From positions 1 to 36,924 of IMG/VR virus record IMGVR_UViG_3300025098_000132: a DNA stretch of 36,924 nucleotides, one strand, 5' to 3'. This document shows, piece by piece, positions 15,276 through 35,270 of this stretch. The notes beneath the pieces were generated by a model, which worked only from the letters and a program-made list of their open reading frames with translations, had not been told where the DNA came from and did no database searches. Both the position numbers and the translations under genes were made by a program. The DNA comes from a virus. Each line of letters starts with the position of its first letter. Position 1 is the stretch's first letter.

Positions 15276-18200
15276 ATGCCTTTTACTACTAATCCTAACA
15301 ATAAATATACAGTAAGCATAATAACTGACCCTACAGGTGGAGATGGTATGTCTACGCCTAGTGGTTATGAATCTGTTTATGTAATGGAAATAATACCAAA
15401 TCCTGGTGAAGTTATTATTGCTGGTGATTTGACAGTAGATTCTAACTCTTTTCAACCTGGTACTCCACCACAACCTTCTTTACACAGTATAACACCTGTT
15501 AATGGGCTTTTTCAACTGCAAGAGTATTTTATGCAGAGCCCTGCCGGACACCCAGAGATTGATGTTATTGGTTTGTATGAAGTTTATGTTGATGATGTAG
15601 GTAATGAGTGGGATTATACGCAAGGGCCTCAGCCTTCAATAACTACTAACACAAACCCTATAAAGTTAAGGTTATACATTTCTCTTGCTACTAGTTTTAC
15701 TACAACAATTCCTATTGCTGACACTAATATATTTTTAGATATAGACTTAGCGTCTTTAACACCTATATATGGTTGTACAGACCCAACGGCTTTTAATTAC
15801 AACGCGTTAGCAAATACTGACGATGGTAGCTGTACACCTATTGTTGTTGGTTGTATGGATGCTTTATCAGATACTTATGATGCTACAGCTAACACGCCTG
15901 ACGCTACTTTGTGTGAATATTGGGGTTGTATAGATTCTGGTGCTACAAACTACGGTGTAAACTACACGCATGATTGTGGTGGTAACTTAACAAGTATTGA
16001 TACAACTTGCTGTCAATATGCTGGCGCATGTAACACACCTATAAATCTTACATCAGGTGCTATTTCTTTAAATTACGATTCTCCTAATAACGTTGATTGT
16101 AGTGGTATGCCTGGTAGTGCTGATGATTCTTGTTGTCATTACGCAGTGCCAGATTGCTTAGATGTTACGGCGAGCAACTACCACTACAACGTAGCTAGCA
16201 ATACTGTAAATGGTACTGCTTTTGATATAGATTGTAATGGTGATTTAAATGGTACAGACTACAACTGTTGCAATTATATAACAAACTCTTGTGTCGACGG
16301 AGGTCAATGGGCTTTAAGCCCTTACCCAGGAGTACAAGCTGACAACTATGACCCTAATGGTACACATGACTGTCAAGGTAACGATATAAGTACTTCTTAT
16401 TACACTAGTTTAATTCAATCTCAAGGTCTTTGGAATAACTGTTGTACATATACTATAGACGGCTGCATGGACGATTCAAATAGTGGGCAAGACACTTATT
16501 CGTTCTCTAATTTTGCTGGATTTGGCGGTTTTGCAGTAAACAGCCGTTGGATTAATACCAATACATATAATTTTTGTGTAGGTTTTACATCCCCTGGAAC
16601 AAGTCCTCAACAGCTGTATTATAGCGGTATTACTGGTTGTTTTTATTCAAACGGGTATGAGTATGAAAACTACAATCCAGATGCAACAGTTACGAATCTT
16701 AATACTTGCATAAAAGGTGGTTGTATGGACGATGGTACTTTAGATGTTAATGCTGGAGATCCTTACACTAGTCCTTACCCTGGTATTGCTCCAGAGAATT
16801 ATGATTCTCGCGCAACGTATGACAATGGAACTTGTGTTTACATGGGCTGCATGGATCCAAACTCTAGTAATTATGATTCATTTGCAAATGTTGATAGTGT
16901 TTTAACAACTCCAGTCGAACTAAGACAATTTCTTAGGGGAAATCACGTTGTTCCTCCAGTACCAGCTTACGACCCTGCAAATGGTATTGTTGGTGATTGT
17001 GCTGGTGGTTATAACTTAGGTTGTACAGACCCAACATCTTCAAACTATGACGCAACAGCAACAGTTGATGATGGTTCTTGTTGTGTAGATGGATGTATGG
17101 ACGATGGTAGTTTGTTAATAGCAAATGGAGATCCTTACGATAGCCCTTACCCTGGTCAATCCGCAGATGTTGTTAACCCACTAGCAACATGTGACGACGG
17201 TACTTATTGTACTTATACTAATATTACTTCTGGATGTACAGATCCAACAGCTTTTAATTACGATCCACTAGCAATTACAGATGATGGTTCTTGCTATTGG
17301 GAAGGTTGTGCTGAAGCCGCTGTTGATTTCGCAGGTAATATAGCGGCAACAAATTATTTGCATGACTGCCAAGGTGTTGATAGGTCTAGCGCATTTTATT
17401 CTAATCCTCTTAGTAATTTTCACCCTTCAGCCGAATGTAATGTACAAACTAATTACCCTGGAACAAGAAATAACGCTTGTGAATACCAGTGCCCTACATA
17501 CACCGCTACTGTAGACTCAAGCACTGGCGGTATAGTTATAGATATTGACGCTACAAACATGCCCAACACAGGATTACCAACAATTGAAGTTCGTTTTCGT
17601 TACGGAGAGGTTGGCACACAAGTTAATACGTGGCAAGGTTATGGTGTAAGGGCTAGAATAAATGCTGCTACAGCTCAACTTACTTACGATAGAGCTTCGG
17701 GCTGGACAGCAGGAAATGGAGCGAGTAATATCACCAGCTTTTACCCTAGCTCTAACTTTACAATCTGGAAAAGTTATAACACTGCTATGCAACCCATAAC
17801 TTTTGCAAACACTCCAAATGAAGTGGCTTACACTATAAACGCTTCGGCTTTTGTTGCCAAGCCCGGCCAGAACACCGCACCACTACCTAATTTTGGTTGG
17901 TATTGGGGCTCTAATGGTGGTATGTCAACGTGCAGGCAAACACTTTTTTCAGCTGGTTTTGCATACCGCCTTGGTTGTACGGACCCATTAGCAGGTAATT
18001 ATGATTCGTTAGCTACGGTTGACGATGGTAGTTGTACCTACCCTTGTGATTGTGGGAGTAACTTTACTATTTCACAATCTTTAGTTATAGACTCTTGTGG
18101 CGCAAGAATATTAGCTACTATTGACAACACTACAACTGACCCAGCTTGTATTCCTTGTGAATTTCCTAGTCTAATATCACTAATAGTTGATGAAAACGTA

Positions 18201-19568
18201 ACACCTCCATTGTGGACTAATGACCAATTGTACGTAGAAGCTTTTAACTTTTATAATAATTTTGGTAATTTATCGTTTCAATCAGGTCAACCTCTGACTA
18301 CACCACTAAGGATATGGGACGCTAACGCATCGTATTTAGGTGGTTCTGGTAGTAATTTTGCAAATATAACCGACTATCCAATAGTGTTAGAATGGTTTAT
18401 AACTACAAACCCTAGTGGTCCTGAAATTAATACCGATTCAACTTCCCCTGAGTATGATTATGATATAGACGGTAGGGTATATTATACGAAATTAGAATTT
18501 GCATCCGGAATGGGCGCTGTAACATCTGCGCCGCTAAACGTTAGTTATACGCCTTCGATTGGTTGTGGTGATTCTAACGCTATAAACTTTGTTCAAGGTA
18601 CAACATGCCCTAGTTCTTCAAGTTGTTATTTTTGCCCTGACAGTACAAGCTCTAATGCTATAGCTGGAGTAAATATGGTTAACGACTTTACTGTTGACAT
18701 ACAAGCGGTAAGCAATTTAGTTAGTGGTCCTACTTACACGGCTACACACAACCCATTGTCACCTACAGGTGGAAGCCCTGTTCCACCAGACAATTTTACT
18801 TGGTCTTTTACTAATGTAAATCACGGTCCTCAAGGAGATATTACTGGTACTTTTAGTGGAAGCACTATTACAGCATCGCCAACATATCCTGCCAGTTTAG
18901 CAGACTTTGACGATCCACTTGCTTCTGCATATCCTCCAGGATATACAATAGTTGAAAATGGTACGACTTACAACTGCTCAGGAATACCATCAACATCTCA
19001 CTTGGTTACACTTACTTTAGAGTGGTTAGATCCCAACACTGGAAACTCTGCTTGTACTGTTAGTAGTCCTTATGGCAATTTAACTCCTGAGCCTTTTTAC
19101 TTTGCTTATGGATGCACAGATCCTCTAGCTTTTAATTATGGTGGTCCTTGTGTTACTATAGATGATGGTTCTTGTACTCCTGCAGTGTATGGTTGTTTGT
19201 GTTCTAGTGCTATTAATTACTTTCCTGGAGCTAATATTGATGATGGGTCTTGTATTTATGCTGGATGTACATCTACTGATCCAGGTCCTAACCCTGATAT
19301 AAATGGTTTTTGTTCTAACGCTGTTTTTGACAGTTCTATTTACACTTGCGGAAACTCTTTATCGGCTTATACTAGTTATGGTACTTATTATGAATATAAT
19401 TCTATGGGAATTTATGTTGGAGTTGCAAACACACCTGCAACTGGAATTCCAACAACATCATTAAATACTGGCCACGCGTGTGGTAATGTTACCGCTGGTC
19501 TTGCCAATATTGGTTATAGCTCTTCAAATTATGATCCACTAGCCACCATTAATAATGGTACTTGTTAA
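15276..19568 (+). CDS. Cys-rich repeat tail appendage / adhesin candidate
   Basis: The 1430-residue protein has no signal peptide. Residues 1-165 form a beta-rich Cys-free head that may attach to the tail. From residue 166 to the C-terminus it is built largely from Cys-containing repeats that start GC[TM]D, have NY in the middle and end DDGSC, in short (about 21 residues) and longer variants. Several longer variants contain a SPYPG segment. A Cys-poor beta domain lies at about 740-895. The protein ends NNGTC, exactly at a repeat end. The gene follows the muzzle by 10 bases and precedes other appendage genes, so a receptor-binding fibre or virion decoration is most likely. The same repeat forms most of the T9SS-sorted protein at 33126. 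Binding target unknown. Confidence 0.7.
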   Translation: MPFTTNPNNKYTVSIITDPTGGDGMSTPSGYESVYVMEIIPNPGEVIIAGDLTVDSNSFQPGTPPQPSLHSITPVNGLFQLQEYFMQSPAGHPEIDVIGLYEVYVDDVGNEWDYTQGPQPSITTNTNPIKLRLYISLATSFTTTIPIADTNIFLDIDLASLTPIYGCTDPTAFNYNALANTDDGSCTPIVVGCMDALSDTYDATANTPDATLCEYWGCIDSGATNYGVNYTHDCGGNLTSIDTTCCQYAGACNTPINLTSGAISLNYDSPNNVDCSGMPGSADDSCCHYAVPDCLDVTASNYHYNVASNTVNGTAFDIDCNGDLNGTDYNCCNYITNSCVDGGQWALSPYPGVQADNYDPNGTHDCQGNDISTSYYTSLIQSQGLWNNCCTYTIDGCMDDSNSGQDTYSFSNFAGFGGFAVNSRWINTNTYNFCVGFTSPGTSPQQLYYSGITGCFYSNGYEYENYNPDATVTNLNTCIKGGCMDDGTLDVNAGDPYTSPYPGIAPENYDSRATYDNGTCVYMGCMDPNSSNYDSFANVDSVLTTPVELRQFLRGNHVVPPVPAYDPANGIVGDCAGGYNLGCTDPTSSNYDATATVDDGSCCVDGCMDDGSLLIANGDPYDSPYPGQSADVVNPLATCDDGTYCTYTNITSGCTDPTAFNYDPLAITDDGSCYWEGCAEAAVDFAGNIAATNYLHDCQGVDRSSAFYSNPLSNFHPSAECNVQTNYPGTRNNACEYQCPTYTATVDSSTGGIVIDIDATNMPNTGLPTIEVRFRYGEVGTQVNTWQGYGVRARINAATAQLTYDRASGWTAGNGASNITSFYPSSNFTIWKSYNTAMQPITFANTPNEVAYTINASAFVAKPGQNTAPLPNFGWYWGSNGGMSTCRQTLFSAGFAYRLGCTDPLAGNYDSLATVDDGSCTYPCDCGSNFTISQSLVIDSCGARILATIDNTTTDPACIPCEFPSLISLIVDENVTPPLWTNDQLYVEAFNFYNNFGNLSFQSGQPLTTPLRIWDANASYLGGSGSNFANITDYPIVLEWFITTNPSGPEINTDSTSPEYDYDIDGRVYYTKLEFASGMGAVTSAPLNVSYTPSIGCGDSNAINFVQGTTCPSSSSCYFCPDSTSSNAIAGVNMVNDFTVDIQAVSNLVSGPTYTATHNPLSPTGGSPVPPDNFTWSFTNVNHGPQGDITGTFSGSTITASPTYPASLADFDDPLASAYPPGYTIVENGTTYNCSGIPSTSHLVTLTLEWLDPNTGNSACTVSSPYGNLTPEPFYFAYGCTDPLAFNYGGPCVTIDDGSCTPAVYGCLCSSAINYFPGANIDDGSCIYAGCTSTDPGPNPDINGFCSNAVFDSSIYTCGNSLSAYTSYGTYYEYNSMGIYVGVANTPATGIPTTSLNTGHACGNVTAGLANIGYSSSNYDPLATINNGTC
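15771..19565 (+). repeat. Coding Cys repeats (GC[TM]D...DDGSC) in appendage gene
   Basis: Clear short units begin at 15771, 17019, 17232, 17973, 19110 and 19191. Divergent or longer units begin near 15849, 16458, 16719, 16845 and 17091, and a final half unit ends at 19565. The longer units at about 16719 and 17091 share a GDPY.SPYPG core. Units differ at synonymous positions, so they are old copies rather than a recent expansion. The DDG/DNG turn before the last Cys resembles Ca-binding turns, but this is only an inference. Confidence 0.85.
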
Positions 19569-30911: not shown

Positions 30912-31961
30912 ATGAAAAAACTAATAATAATATTGCTAACAACTTTAGTTGCTTGTGCAGCACCAAAAGAGTGTTGTTCACAGAACTTTAAAAAGTATTT
31001 TAAATTTGCTACGTTTTATGCTGCGGCTAACGGTGGTAACTCTGTATCAGATATAGATGTATTTTCTGTAACTAATGGTTTAGAAACCGTAACAGTAGAA
31101 ACTCCTTACGATTACAACCTAGCTTTAGGTATACGTAAAATTGCTAGGTTTGGTTATGAGAACAGGGCAAGTACATTTTACGATGGCACAGAAGAATCAT
31201 GGTCAGACGGTGCTAGTATTGGTAAAGTACGTGGCTTAGAATTTTTATTTGAGGTAGATTATAAAAGACAACAAGGTAATGAATATTTAGATCAGCATCA
31301 TTTTATAAGATTTGTAGATAATAAGTATATACTAAAAGGTGAATACTTAGAAGATGGTTTTGCTGATATTAAATATGTTGAAATGTCAGAAAGATATAGA
31401 TATAAAGTTAATGACAAATTGTCCTTTAATGCTGGGCTTGCTCAAAGGTTATCCGAACCGTACGGATATGATCCCTTGGCGGAGTGGATGCTAAGCAATG
31501 GCAATATACATTACACTTACCTAGCACTGCAAGAAGGCTATAATGTCGATGTAGCTGCTAGTGAGTATTTTTCTCCTAGTGGAGAACTCGTTGCTACAAG
31601 CAAAGAGGTTTGGGAAGAGGTTGTTATACCTACAATGTTAGCTGATTATACCGAGAGAAAACGTAATGAATTAAGCCAGATAATACAACACTCTGTTGTT
31701 ATAGGTTTTGATTACTATCACTATACAAAATCATTTTGGTCGCATGCTTGGGCTAACTTAATGCCTTGGCACTATAATGATGGCGGTGAGTTTTCTTACC
31801 ATACTTACAACGATGGTCAGTGGTTAGATTATAATGGTGGCTTAATACTTGGTTACAAGGTGAACAAGTCGCTAGGAACGTTTGTAGAAGGTAAATATAA
31901 CAAATACTGGAATCGTAAGTGGTATGACTTTAAATTTGGAGTAAACTACGTAATCTTTTAA
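30912..31961 (+). CDS. Exported outer-membrane beta-barrel-like protein
   Basis: The 349-residue protein starts with a signal sequence MKKLIIILLTTLVACAAPKE. It has a possible lipobox (LVAC, Cys15), though ordinary signal peptidase cleavage just after the CCSQ stretch is also possible. The body is rich in aromatic and alternating beta strands separated by Gly/Asn/Asp turns (FNAGLAQRLSEPYGYD, WLDYNGGLILGYKVN, GTFVEGKYNKYW). It ends GVNYVIF: a terminal Phe preceded by alternating hydrophobics, the usual BAM insertion signal. It starts 16 bases after the giant virion gene and opens the envelope cassette. I recall similar proteins in uncultured marine flavophages. Possible jobs are superinfection exclusion or surface alteration; a lysis role is less likely. 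Confidence 0.65.
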   Translation: MKKLIIILLTTLVACAAPKECCSQNFKKYFKFATFYAAANGGNSVSDIDVFSVTNGLETVTVETPYDYNLALGIRKIARFGYENRASTFYDGTEESWSDGASIGKVRGLEFLFEVDYKRQQGNEYLDQHHFIRFVDNKYILKGEYLEDGFADIKYVEMSERYRYKVNDKLSFNAGLAQRLSEPYGYDPLAEWMLSNGNIHYTYLALQEGYNVDVAASEYFSPSGELVATSKEVWEEVVIPTMLADYTERKRNELSQIIQHSVVIGFDYYHYTKSFWSHAWANLMPWHYNDGGEFSYHTYNDGQWLDYNGGLILGYKVNKSLGTFVEGKYNKYWNRKWYDFKFGVNYVIF

Positions 31962-31980
31962 CTATAACAAATTTACAAAA

Positions 31981-32256
31981 ATGGCAAGAGAATTAAACGA
32001 AGATACTGGCTTTAATATAAGCATTAAAACACTGATAGCAGTTGGCTTTGCATTGTCTGGTATTATAGGTATGTGGTTTGCTTTACAAGCAGATATAGCT
32101 GAAGCAAAAGAGCTTCCAAAACCTGATGTAACTCGCATGGAGTTTAACATGAAGGATATTAACGTTAGAAACACTATTATGGAGACTAGAGACGACGTTA
32201 AAAAACTTGAAGAAAGATTAATCAGAATGGAAGACAAAATAGATGATTTAAGATAA
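31981..32256 (+). CDS. Single-span membrane protein with coiled coil (holin or spanin candidate)
   Basis: This 91-residue protein has a short polar N-terminus, one hydrophobic segment at about residues 14-38 (TLIAVGFALSGIIGMWFALQ) and a charged helical C-terminus. The last 35 residues show heptad-like Leu/Met/Ile spacing and end LEERLIRMEDKIDDLR. The coiled coil is probably periplasmic if the short N-terminus stays inside; the topology is not certain. Small proteins of this layout are holin or i-spanin candidates in phages. Alternatively it may anchor a complex with the neighbouring exported proteins. Its stop is separated by a single base from the next start, which argues for co-translation. 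Confidence 0.6.
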   Translation: MARELNEDTGFNISIKTLIAVGFALSGIIGMWFALQADIAEAKELPKPDVTRMEFNMKDINVRNTIMETRDDVKKLEERLIRMEDKIDDLR

Positions 32257-32257
32257 T

Positions 32258-32581
32258 ATGAAATATTTTTTAGTAACATTAATGCTGGTATGTAACAGCG
32301 CTTTTTCACAAGTTGTTGTCACTCAGTTTAATGCTGACTGGAACTCCGCTAATGACGTTGAATGGTTTCAGAAACTAAATGATTGTGATTTAGCTAAAGT
32401 AGATATAGTTAAAGAAACAAAGCTACAAGAAAAACATAAAATAGTTATAGTACCTACTATAATTATATTTAAAGATGGCGAAGAAATAAAAAGGTATCAA
32501 GCAGATCTTAGCTTTAAAATGCTTGCGACAAGAAAAGAAATACAAAATTTTATTAACGAACAGATAATGAGTGATTTTTAA
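32258..32581 (+). CDS. Exported thioredoxin-fold protein lacking catalytic cysteines
   Basis: The 107-residue product has a signal peptide (about residues 1-18, ending SAFSQ) and an 89-residue thioredoxin-like body. The order is strand VVVTQFNADW, helix, strand LAKVDIVKETKL, then the conserved IVPTIIIFKDGEEIKRY with the cis-Pro position (Pro66), and a final helix. Where active thioredoxins have W-C-x-x-C, this one reads W28-N-S-A-N32, so redox chemistry is excluded. Remaining cysteines are Cys12, inside the signal peptide, and Cys43. The mature protein should be periplasmic. A binding or chaperone-like role for exported partners is plausible, but this is inference. Its stop codon overlaps the next start (TAATG). 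Confidence 0.7.
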   Translation: MKYFLVTLMLVCNSAFSQVVVTQFNADWNSANDVEWFQKLNDCDLAKVDIVKETKLQEKHKIVIVPTIIIFKDGEEIKRYQADLSFKMLATRKEIQNFINEQIMSDF

Positions 32582-33129
32582 TGAGAAAACTTCTAGTTTT
32601 TCTTTTAATGTTTTCTTGTGCTAAAGAACAAGATGACTTAGGATTTAGAACGTATGTAATACCTGAAGGTGCACATAGTTCTGGCAGTTATTTTAATCAC
32701 CCTACAAATTCAAGAATAGACTTTGATTTCATGTTAGATGAGTCTGCAATTTATACTAGTGAAATACCAGAGAATCAATACGACGTAAATAAGATTTACG
32801 GCTTTAGCGATTTTGGTGTTAGACATCAAAAATACTCTATAAGATTAGGTTGGAGGTATTTAAACAATGAGCTAGAACTTTGTTGGTTAAGACACGAAGA
32901 AGGTAGACATACAGCTGCTACTATAAGAACTATAGAACCAGATGTATCTTACAATGCTACGATAGATATTAAGACGTTTTACTACATTATAACTATAGAT
33001 GGTGATACAACTATGGTTAGAAGAAGACCAGAAGGAAACTGGGGTTTAATTAAAAGATATTATTTATACCCTTATTTTGGCGGTAATGAATACGCGCCAC
33101 ACGACATTACAATTAAGATAAAAGAATGA
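32581..33129 (+). CDS. Phage-encoded lipoprotein, beta-sandwich type
   Basis: The start ATG shares its A with the previous stop. The 182-residue product begins MRKLLVFLLMFSCAKEQDDL with a lipobox-like MFSC (Cys13). The mature part is beta-rich: RIDFDFMLDESAIY, YSIRLGWRYLNNELELCWLR, then YNATIDIKTFYYIITIDGDT, and ends HDITIKIKE. This looks like a concanavalin- or jelly-roll-like sandwich. The residues after the Cys (A-K-E-Q-D-D) resemble, imperfectly, the Lys plus acidic export signal that sends Bacteroidota lipoproteins to the outer surface. It probably sits in the outer membrane, possibly facing out. Its stop overlaps the next start (ATGA). Function unknown; lipoproteins that block superinfection are one precedent class. 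Confidence 0.62.
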   Translation: MRKLLVFLLMFSCAKEQDDLGFRTYVIPEGAHSSGSYFNHPTNSRIDFDFMLDESAIYTSEIPENQYDVNKIYGFSDFGVRHQKYSIRLGWRYLNNELELCWLRHEEGRHTAATIRTIEPDVSYNATIDIKTFYYIITIDGDTTMVRRRPEGNWGLIKRYYLYPYFGGNEYAPHDITIKIKE

Positions 33130-35270
33130 AGAAATTACTACTACTTATATTTTTATTACCAATATTTTTGTTTGCGCAAGGACCTTGCACGCCTACATTA
33201 ATTAATATAAACTTAGATCAATACCCAGAAGAAACTACTTGGGATATTCAAGACACTTTAGGTAATGTAATTGTATCTGGTGGTCCATATAATAACGCAC
33301 CAAACTACGAGCCACAATTTATTGTAAATTGTTTACCACCTGGTGAAATGGCTTTTACTATATACGACTTGTACGGAGATGGTTTAGAAGGTAGCTTGTG
33401 GGGTGGACAAGATGGTTCTTATTATATCATGCAGTGTGGCGATACGTTGGTGTATGGCGACTCTGCTGCTTTTGGTTATGATACTACACATGTGTTTATA
33501 TCTGCTCCTTGTCCTCCACCACCAACAGTTCTTGGTTGCATGGACGATGATTACTTAGAATATAATCCATTAGCTAATGTTAGCGATAGTAGCTGCAGCA
33601 CACTAGTAATTTATGGTTGTACTGATAGTACAATGTATAATTACGACTCTCTAGCAAACTCAATGGAATACATCGATCAATGTACTTACGACCTTATATT
33701 ACACGATTTAATAGGTGATGGTTGGGTTTTTGGAACTGTGTTGGAAGTTTACCAAGATGCTGACACCACTGCTTTTTTCATGGCAAATGGTGGTTTTAAC
33801 GAATCGTTTACTATAGACTTATATGCACCAGCACAAGTTAATGCTAGACTTATTATTAGTCAACAAGCACAATTTACAGCTGTACAATGTGGGTTTACTT
33901 TAATAGGACCTGATGGTGATACAGCATTATCTGTTCAACCACCTTTTATACAAACATTTTTTACATACCAAGGAAATACTTACTGTGGTGATATATGTGA
34001 AGAAAAAATATACGGTTGTTTAGACAGCTTGGCATTTAATTATATTGACAGTGCTAACACGGCTGATGACTGCTTTTACTACCCTGGTTGTATATCTCCA
34101 GCGTACTTAGAATATCATGTTGATACAGCTAATGCTTATTACACAGACATAAACATACAAGACAGTTGTGAAACTCTAGCTATGTTTGGTTGTACTGACA
34201 CTTTAGCTTTTAATTATGATACTAGCGCTAATGTAGACAACGGTGGTTGTTTGCCTGTAGTTATAGGTTGTATGCAGCCAGTAGCGTTTAATTATAATCC
34301 ACTAGCTAATACACCTGATACTTGTATACCAGTTATATTTGGTTGTACAAACGCAACGTCATTAAACTACGATAGCTTAGCTAATACAGATGATGGTAGT
34401 TGTATTGCAATAGTGTTTGGTTGTACTGACCCTGTGGCTTTTAACTTTATGCCACAAGCAAATGTTGATGATGGTAGCTGCGTACCTGTTGTTTATGGCT
34501 GTACAGATCCTACCATGTTTAACTATAATCAATTAGCAAATGTAGACAATGGTTCTTGTATACCTTTTGTTTATGGCTGTATGGACTCAACACAATTTAA
34601 TTATAACCCACTTGCAAATGCAACCAACAATAGTATTCCTTGCGTTCCTTTTATATATGGCTGCACGGATCCTTCTGCTCTCAATTACGACCAGCAAGCT
34701 AACACGGAGGATTTTAGTTGTATTGCCTTTGTTTATGGGTGTATGGATAGTTTGGCTCTTAATTACGATGCACTGGCTAACACGGATAACGGTTCGTGTA
34801 TTTCTGTCGTTGTGGGTTGCATGGATCAAGCAGCGTATAACTATAATGGAAATGCTAATGTTGACGATCCTGTATCTTGTCTTTACAGCGCAGGTTGCAT
34901 TACTGGTGATAGCATACCTTACTGGCTTAACGATCCGTGTTACGCCTGGGTTATAGACATTGACGAATATTGCTGTGAAAATGAGTGGGACACAGTGTGT
35001 CAAGCCACATATAATTATTGTGACGGTACTTGGTCAGGGCCATTACCTTCAAGAATACAAAACAACATAGCGGTATATCCTAACCCTACAAACCAGTTGA
35101 TCAATATAAATAAAAATGTTGATGCAGAAGTTTACAACAACGTAGGTGAAATACTAATATCTAAAAAACAAATAAACGTCTTAGATGTGTCCAGGTTAAC
35201 TCCTGGAGCATACGTGTTACGTTTAAAACACGATAACAAATACATTTACAAACAAATAATAAAAAAATAA
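33126..35270 (+). CDS. Type IX-secreted Cys-repeat surface protein encoded by the phage
   Basis: The 714-residue protein has a signal peptide (about 1-18, ending LFAQ) and a beta domain at about 19-130 with ININLDQYPEETTWDIQDTL and FTIYDLYGDGLEGSLWGG, a module I know from Flavobacteriia secreted proteins. Residues 137-585 hold about 13 repeats beginning GC[TM]D or a variant, having NY, and ending near DDGSC; a second beta domain interrupts them at about 190-290. A Cys cluster DEYCCENEWDTVCQATYNYC precedes the end. Residues 648-714 form a T9SS type A sorting domain: IAVYPNPTNQLININ, a mid EVYNNVGEILISKK, and TPGAYVLRLKHDNK ending IYKQIIKK. Sec export followed by T9SS transport and surface release or anchoring is expected. 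It is translationally coupled (ATGA) to the lipoprotein gene. The repeat is shared with the virion-type gene at 15276. Confidence 0.85.
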   Translation: MKKLLLLIFLLPIFLFAQGPCTPTLININLDQYPEETTWDIQDTLGNVIVSGGPYNNAPNYEPQFIVNCLPPGEMAFTIYDLYGDGLEGSLWGGQDGSYYIMQCGDTLVYGDSAAFGYDTTHVFISAPCPPPPTVLGCMDDDYLEYNPLANVSDSSCSTLVIYGCTDSTMYNYDSLANSMEYIDQCTYDLILHDLIGDGWVFGTVLEVYQDADTTAFFMANGGFNESFTIDLYAPAQVNARLIISQQAQFTAVQCGFTLIGPDGDTALSVQPPFIQTFFTYQGNTYCGDICEEKIYGCLDSLAFNYIDSANTADDCFYYPGCISPAYLEYHVDTANAYYTDINIQDSCETLAMFGCTDTLAFNYDTSANVDNGGCLPVVIGCMQPVAFNYNPLANTPDTCIPVIFGCTNATSLNYDSLANTDDGSCIAIVFGCTDPVAFNFMPQANVDDGSCVPVVYGCTDPTMFNYNQLANVDNGSCIPFVYGCMDSTQFNYNPLANATNNSIPCVPFIYGCTDPSALNYDQQANTEDFSCIAFVYGCMDSLALNYDALANTDNGSCISVVVGCMDQAAYNYNGNANVDDPVSCLYSAGCITGDSIPYWLNDPCYAWVIDIDEYCCENEWDTVCQATYNYCDGTWSGPLPSRIQNNIAVYPNPTNQLININKNVDAEVYNNVGEILISKKQINVLDVSRLTPGAYVLRLKHDNKYIYKQIIKK
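33534..34880 (+). repeat. About 13 coding Cys repeats in the T9SS-sorted protein
   Basis: Units of about 21 residues run from 33534 to 34880, interrupted near 33690-34010 by a beta domain. Most begin GCTD or GCMD. Between 34320 and 34825 they lie head to tail with an 8- to 9-residue linker ([IF]VYG or similar) before each unit. Synonymous codons differ strongly from unit to unit, and units 10-12 (about 34660-34825) are visibly richer in G and C. Confidence 0.88.

Follow-up and report, generated by a model that had tools for sequence, protein, structure and literature searches.

Use of the host type IX secretion system (T9SS) by phage proteins has been proposed earlier. In Cryophage (Nat Commun 2020), three variable genes encode type A sorting domains; use of the host T9SS was proposed for them, and superinfection exclusion was suggested as the role of the cargo genes (PMC7468147). 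Proteins with T9SS sorting domains were also noted in 2019, without follow-up, in cluster 2 of the crAss-like phages (PMC6949934). A preliminary description of the locus reported here had stated that no described phage protein using this route was known, which is wrong in view of these two studies, where phage-encoded T9SS cargo is already present. Our searches add the isolate Flavobacterium phage immuto (L155 5506–6237, MW353176.1), whose protein QQO91933 combines a cohesin domain, a signal peptide and a type A tail (PF18962, 39.3 bits), and phage genomes of 642 and 735 kb with type A domains above the cut-off (LR756502.1 325937–326134; LR756501.1 48860–49051 and 654257–654469). On the bacterial side, the sorting domains of NucA and FspA (8glk, 8glj) have been solved trapped in the T9SS translocon of F. 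johnsoniae (PMC10994853). Short CTDs of 43–55 residues, which form a single sheet of three strands corresponding to strands 3, 6 and 7 of the long CTDs, have been reported from Prevotella intermedia; cleavage and glycosylation of their cargo were shown, and no other species of the phylum was reported to possess both CTD lengths (PMC11969387). A leader followed by Gln at +1 is known as the 'Bacteroidetes Q-rule' (PMC5837995), and phage proteins obeying it have been described (PMC10367356).

The stretch of DNA analysed here (the window, 36,924 nucleotides, IMG/VR record IMGVR_UViG_3300025098_000132) encodes TerL, portal, a virion structural protein and an M15 endolysin according to Pfam and PHROGs, as well as a 1889-aa protein with the crAss-like muzzle domain PF25729 crAss_MUZ_C (31.1 bits, cut-off 27). 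By these hallmark genes the window is assigned to the crAss-like phages (Crassvirales). Over its full length, the portal shows 42–53% identity to the portals of the best-matching named relatives, namely MW202828, Maribacter phage Panino and the Flavobacterium elemo phages, and the portals of Cellulophaga and Tenacibaculum phages match too. The gene of the 714-aa protein that is the subject of this study is present in 46 related IMG/VR loci, with divergence down to about 41% identity. Most of these loci share their neighbours, which are an exported protein of 349 aa, a small membrane protein and an exported thioredoxin-like protein, with the gene of a very large protein lying upstream and that of the M15 endolysin downstream. 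There is some variation in gene order, and a number of loci are fragmentary. In the window, four small exported or membrane genes at 30912–33129 travel with the T9SS-protein gene. A PHROGs search with the 714-aa protein gave no match. When the whole protein was compared with named phages by tblastn, the matches were confined to the repeats (cyanophage S-CAM3 and one marine virus contig), and tblastn in named phages with the 349-aa neighbour and the 1430-aa repeat protein listed in Table 1 gave none.

Table 1. Coordinates of the exported-protein gene, its parts and associated genes in the window.
Feature	Position	Strand	Basis
1430-aa protein among virion genes, without signal peptide, with five copies of the cysteine repeat of the exported protein	15276..19568	+	
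349-aa exported protein of the cassette	30912..31961	+	Conserved neighbour; no Pfam/PHROG match
91-aa protein, one apparent N-terminal membrane segment	31981..32256	+	Conserved neighbour; PHROGs of unknown function
Thioredoxin-like protein with signal peptide	32258..32581	+	PF00085, 29.4 bits; conserved neighbour
Putative lipoprotein of 182 aa whose leader ends in FSC; some family members have it	32581..33129	+	Sequence
Whole gene of the exported protein (714 aa, T9SS type A sorting domain)	33126..35270	+	Profile matches; 46 related viral loci
Signal peptide, residues 1–17, Gln at +1 (Q-rule)	33126..33176	+	Sequence; same pattern in 41 of 43 relatives
First beta-sandwich domain, residues 20–128	33183..33509	+	AlphaFold pLDDT mostly 68–88
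Eleven cysteine-rich GC(T/M)D..NY..AN..DGSC repeats	33615..34880	+	Pattern search
Second beta-sandwich domain (GDGW type), residues 180–290	33663..33995	+	AlphaFold pLDDT about 85
PCYAWVIDIDEYCCENEWDTVCQ..Y..C module, highly conserved among family members	34932..35030	+	Family comparison
Junction where window/L022 DNA similarity ends, site of tail exchange	35033..35072	+	
T9SS type A sorting domain, residues 650–714	35073..35267	+	TIGR04183, PF18962, 8glk_D sequence match, AlphaFold model, fold search

The coordinates, strand and length of the open reading frame are as first described, and its ATG shares bases with the stop codon of the gene before it. The N-terminus (MKKLLLLIFLLPIFLFA, then Q) is a textbook leader as judged by sequence pattern, which bears out the signal peptide proposed earlier. 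Leader and Gln are kept in 41 of the 43 family members that begin with Met; in the two exceptions (L032 and L033) the true start is probably located further upstream. The leaders of six relatives (L010–L012, L014, L015 and L017) end in ..CxxxKxCCGQ, unlike the usual family leader, and resemble the leader of the adjoining 349-aa gene (..ACAAPKECCSQ). It is possible that these represent a leader exchange or a lipoprotein variant.

At the other end of the protein, the YPNP motif (residues 651–654) is followed by TPGAYVLRL and IYKQIIKK, and the sorting domain runs to the stop codon, occupying the extreme C-terminus (residues 650–714 of 714). The TIGR04183 search by which the preliminary description had proposed to check its type A assignment gives E 3.4e-9 and 36.5 bits (cut-off 23 bits) for residues 650–714 over positions 1–72 of the 72 in the profile, and PF18962 gives E 1.4e-9 and 38.5 bits (cut-off 27 bits). 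It is the sole type A domain in the 36.9-kb record. The domain matches that of NucA (8glk_D) by sequence with E 6e-4. The AlphaFold model of residues 650–714 (pLDDT about 80) is an Ig-like beta-sandwich, for which the fold search returns NucA 8glk_D (probability 1.00, TM 0.70, 28% identity) and FspA 8glj_D (TM 0.71), and less well the RgpB domain 7pq4. Between the window and L030, the nearest relative with the same tail, dN/dS of the tail is 0.10, and that of the body is 0.12 (0.09 against L022); all three values indicate purifying selection. SprA is found above cut-off in 235 of the 296 genomes of the likely host order. Exit of the 714-aa protein from the cell via the T9SS, as the preliminary description had suggested, is well supported by the sorting domain, the leader and the match to translocon-bound domains.

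The body of the protein is modular. The AlphaFold model of the whole protein has a mean pLDDT of 50 and is of low quality except in the domains, and the top rows of a whole-protein fold search (otoferlin and similar) were discarded as chance joins of several domains with rmsd near 20. The first cysteine repeat, at 33615, is separate from the main array at 34014–34880. Relatives of residues 21–290 are present in 122 of the 296 genomes of the Flavobacteriales order. The best cellular one is L190, a protein of 996 aa with 35% identity and a type A tail; L188 also has a type A tail, and many other cellular relatives (for example L193 and L194) bear the short tail. The cysteine repeat unit occurs in L081, L106 and L152, host surface proteins that end in type A tails. 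Because relatives of both the body and the repeats occur in host proteins, the 714-aa protein is a mosaic of host surface modules. The repeat is common to the 1430-aa protein (15276–19568) and the exported protein, which might reflect a shared binding partner. Similarity of the repeats at the DNA level between these two genes was not accepted as proof of gene conversion.

Comparison of the family reveals that one body is joined to two exchangeable tails. The type A tail is present in eight of the 40 family records (the window, L030, L011, L012 and L014–L017), and the other 32 have a short tail of 41 residues, for example KKLVAITDLLGRPTKIIKNKLLFYIYSDGSVERKLIKQ. Among the 39 records searched apart from the window, seven end in type A and 32 in the short tail; each of them has one of the two, and none has both. 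The body of the window is 95% identical to that of L022 in protein columns and 92% at the DNA level, but L022 has the short tail, and the DNA similarity ends at the junction given in Table 1. A tree built without the tail requires the tail type to have changed at least three times, and the branches that force these changes are well supported. It is most likely that the export route has been kept across the family and only the tag was swapped. Neither tail was found in the portal-based named relatives Maribacter phage Panino, elemo and MW202828, and tblastn of the short tail against named phages gave no match.

The short tail is also a cellular feature. A genome scan gave 193 cellular stretches, and the 78 loci kept are nearly all from marine Flavobacteriales-type genomes. 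In the cellular proteins that were read, the match stops 0–7 residues before the stop codon, and complete ORFs mostly start with a signal peptide ending in a small residue and Gln. In the 15 genomes compared there are 1–51 short-tail proteins against 31–134 type A proteins per genome, the maximum of 51 copies being reached in a genome of 1.9 Mb. The tail is uncommon in the phylum as a whole (2 of 296 sampled genomes) but present in 96 of the 296 genomes of the order Flavobacteriales. A cellular esterase-like family occurs with either tail. Six of the cellular esterase-like proteins (L165, L166, L168, L169, L173 and L174) end in a variant, ..IDLLGRE..KGFQLFIYDDGSVEKKYFLE, which suggests that the profile used does not capture the whole of the short-tail family.

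What the short tail does decides how far the export reading extends beyond the type A holders. Searches of Pfam and NCBIfam, including TIGR04183 and PF18962, gave no match up to E 10, the exact peptides were not found in the literature, a fold search with the short-tail model gave nothing significant, and the alignment of the cellular tails by themselves with type A is weak (probability 13.7%). These results would fit another kind of C-terminal anchor or fold element, in which case most of the family would not use the T9SS. SprA is moreover undetected in 7 of the 96 tail-bearing genomes. However, it is detected in the remaining 89 (Fisher p 9e-5); ancestry and tiny endosymbiont-sized genomes confound this co-occurrence, which is therefore taken as support only. 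G001 and G003, where SprA was not detected, still hold 52 and 35 type A domains, so that its absence probably reflects incomplete assembly. Possible homology of the short tail to motifs B, D and E of long CTDs was assessed by alignment: against the second half of type A, the phage tails score 25.8 (probability 74%), whereas 100 column-shuffled controls reach at most 13.9. AlphaFold modelling of an 82-residue C-terminal fragment bearing the tail (mean pLDDT 82) predicts three strands (47–51, 64–70 and 75–80), like the T9SS short CTDs of P. intermedia (PMC11969387). With 41 residues at the C-terminus of signal-peptide proteins, the tail falls within the 40–55 residues that delimit short CTDs. 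The repeated natural exchange with type A on one phage body and the occurrence of either tail on related host bodies also argue against an unrelated anchor, which we consider unlikely. The 41-residue tail is most likely a short T9SS sorting domain. Secretion of the short-tail proteins via the T9SS is likely, because they fit the short CTDs of P. intermedia and because related cellular bodies carry either tail. On balance, the short tail is probably a working T9SS signal that public family libraries have missed, common in marine Flavobacteriales and their phages and representing a second lineage after P. intermedia, with the phages swapping long and short forms on one cargo, possibly to suit the host machinery.

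The type A form itself could be read differently. The gene lies between structural genes and the endolysin, and the putative virion protein at 15276–19568 has the same repeats, as would be expected if the 714-aa protein were a fibre or decoration of the virion and its sorting domain a borrowed fold with no role in export. But the Sec leader found in nearly all relatives would remove the protein from the cytoplasm, where virions are assembled, and the sorting domain never lies anywhere but at the very C-terminus, where the one thing that takes its place is a different terminal tag borne by host secreted proteins; a virion component is thus quite improbable. Resemblance of the modules to host surface proteins might also mean that the gene was recently acquired from a host and is carried by chance, with no function for the phage. 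Such passive carriage is highly improbable for a gene that is under purifying selection and holds a fixed place in dozens of phages as divergent as about 41% identity. The preliminary description had itself named host DNA misassembled into the phage contig as a finding that would overturn it. This is ruled out, its likelihood being practically negligible, because independent viral contigs share the gene and its neighbours (46 related viral loci), and the start codon overlaps the preceding phage gene. The earlier identification of the DNA as phage is supported.

With export as the preferred reading, the 714-aa protein is very probably a phage-borne imitation of a host surface protein, sent by Sec and then by the host T9SS to the surface or the medium. 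The domains, conservation, synteny, selection and structural match are observed or computed, and we infer the steps of export from knowledge of the T9SS. The protein would be made on infection of a marine Flavobacteriales-type host and carried by Sec over the inner membrane, where the leader would be cut off to expose the N-terminal Gln. The C-terminal domain would then pass it to the host T9SS translocon (SprA/PorV), which would place the body, with its two beta-sandwich domains, cysteine-rich repeats and CC..WD..C module, on the surface or in the medium. In the relatives, the same body would leave by means of the short tail as the probable T9SS signal. Location of the gene between structural genes and endolysin suggests that production may be late, during virion assembly. 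From the location and the domain content we tentatively propose late remodelling of the infected cell surface, which could perhaps hide or occupy receptors against re-adsorption of sister virions (superinfection exclusion).

As far as the literature shows, a conserved T9SS-cargo family across marine crAss-like phages is new, and so are the two interchangeable tails, the short one being a probable T9SS signal of marine Flavobacteriales that has gone unannotated. T9SS display of phage proteins outside Bacteroidota cells would accordingly be a conserved trait of a phage group and not an oddity of a single genome. The tail exchange amounts to a natural domain-swap experiment and points to an overlooked short secretion signal; if this is confirmed, current counts for the secretomes of abundant marine bacteria are too low.

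Cryophage resembles the window family in having phage genes with type A domains and a proposed use of the T9SS. However, Cryophage is a single phage whose cargo comprises a PA14 protein and enzymes that are variable, whereas the present family is conserved, occupies a fixed locus in many phages, has no recognised enzyme domain and possesses two exchangeable tails. The crAss-like cluster 2 is similar in having T9SS sorting-domain proteins near head genes but differs in that these are BACON-type proteins of gut phages. QQO91933 of immuto shares the signal peptide and the type A domain in an isolated phage, which offers an experimental system for phage T9SS cargo, although it is a protein of 243 aa with an unrelated body, encoded near nucleotide-metabolism genes in a different phage genus. 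NucA and FspA of F. johnsoniae are alike in fold and sequence of the sorting domain but are bacterial substrates with other bodies (PMC10994853). The short CTDs of P. intermedia agree with the short tail of the relatives in length, in the three predicted strands and in motif order; they were reported from that species alone, whereas the short tail is found in marine Flavobacteriales and their phages.
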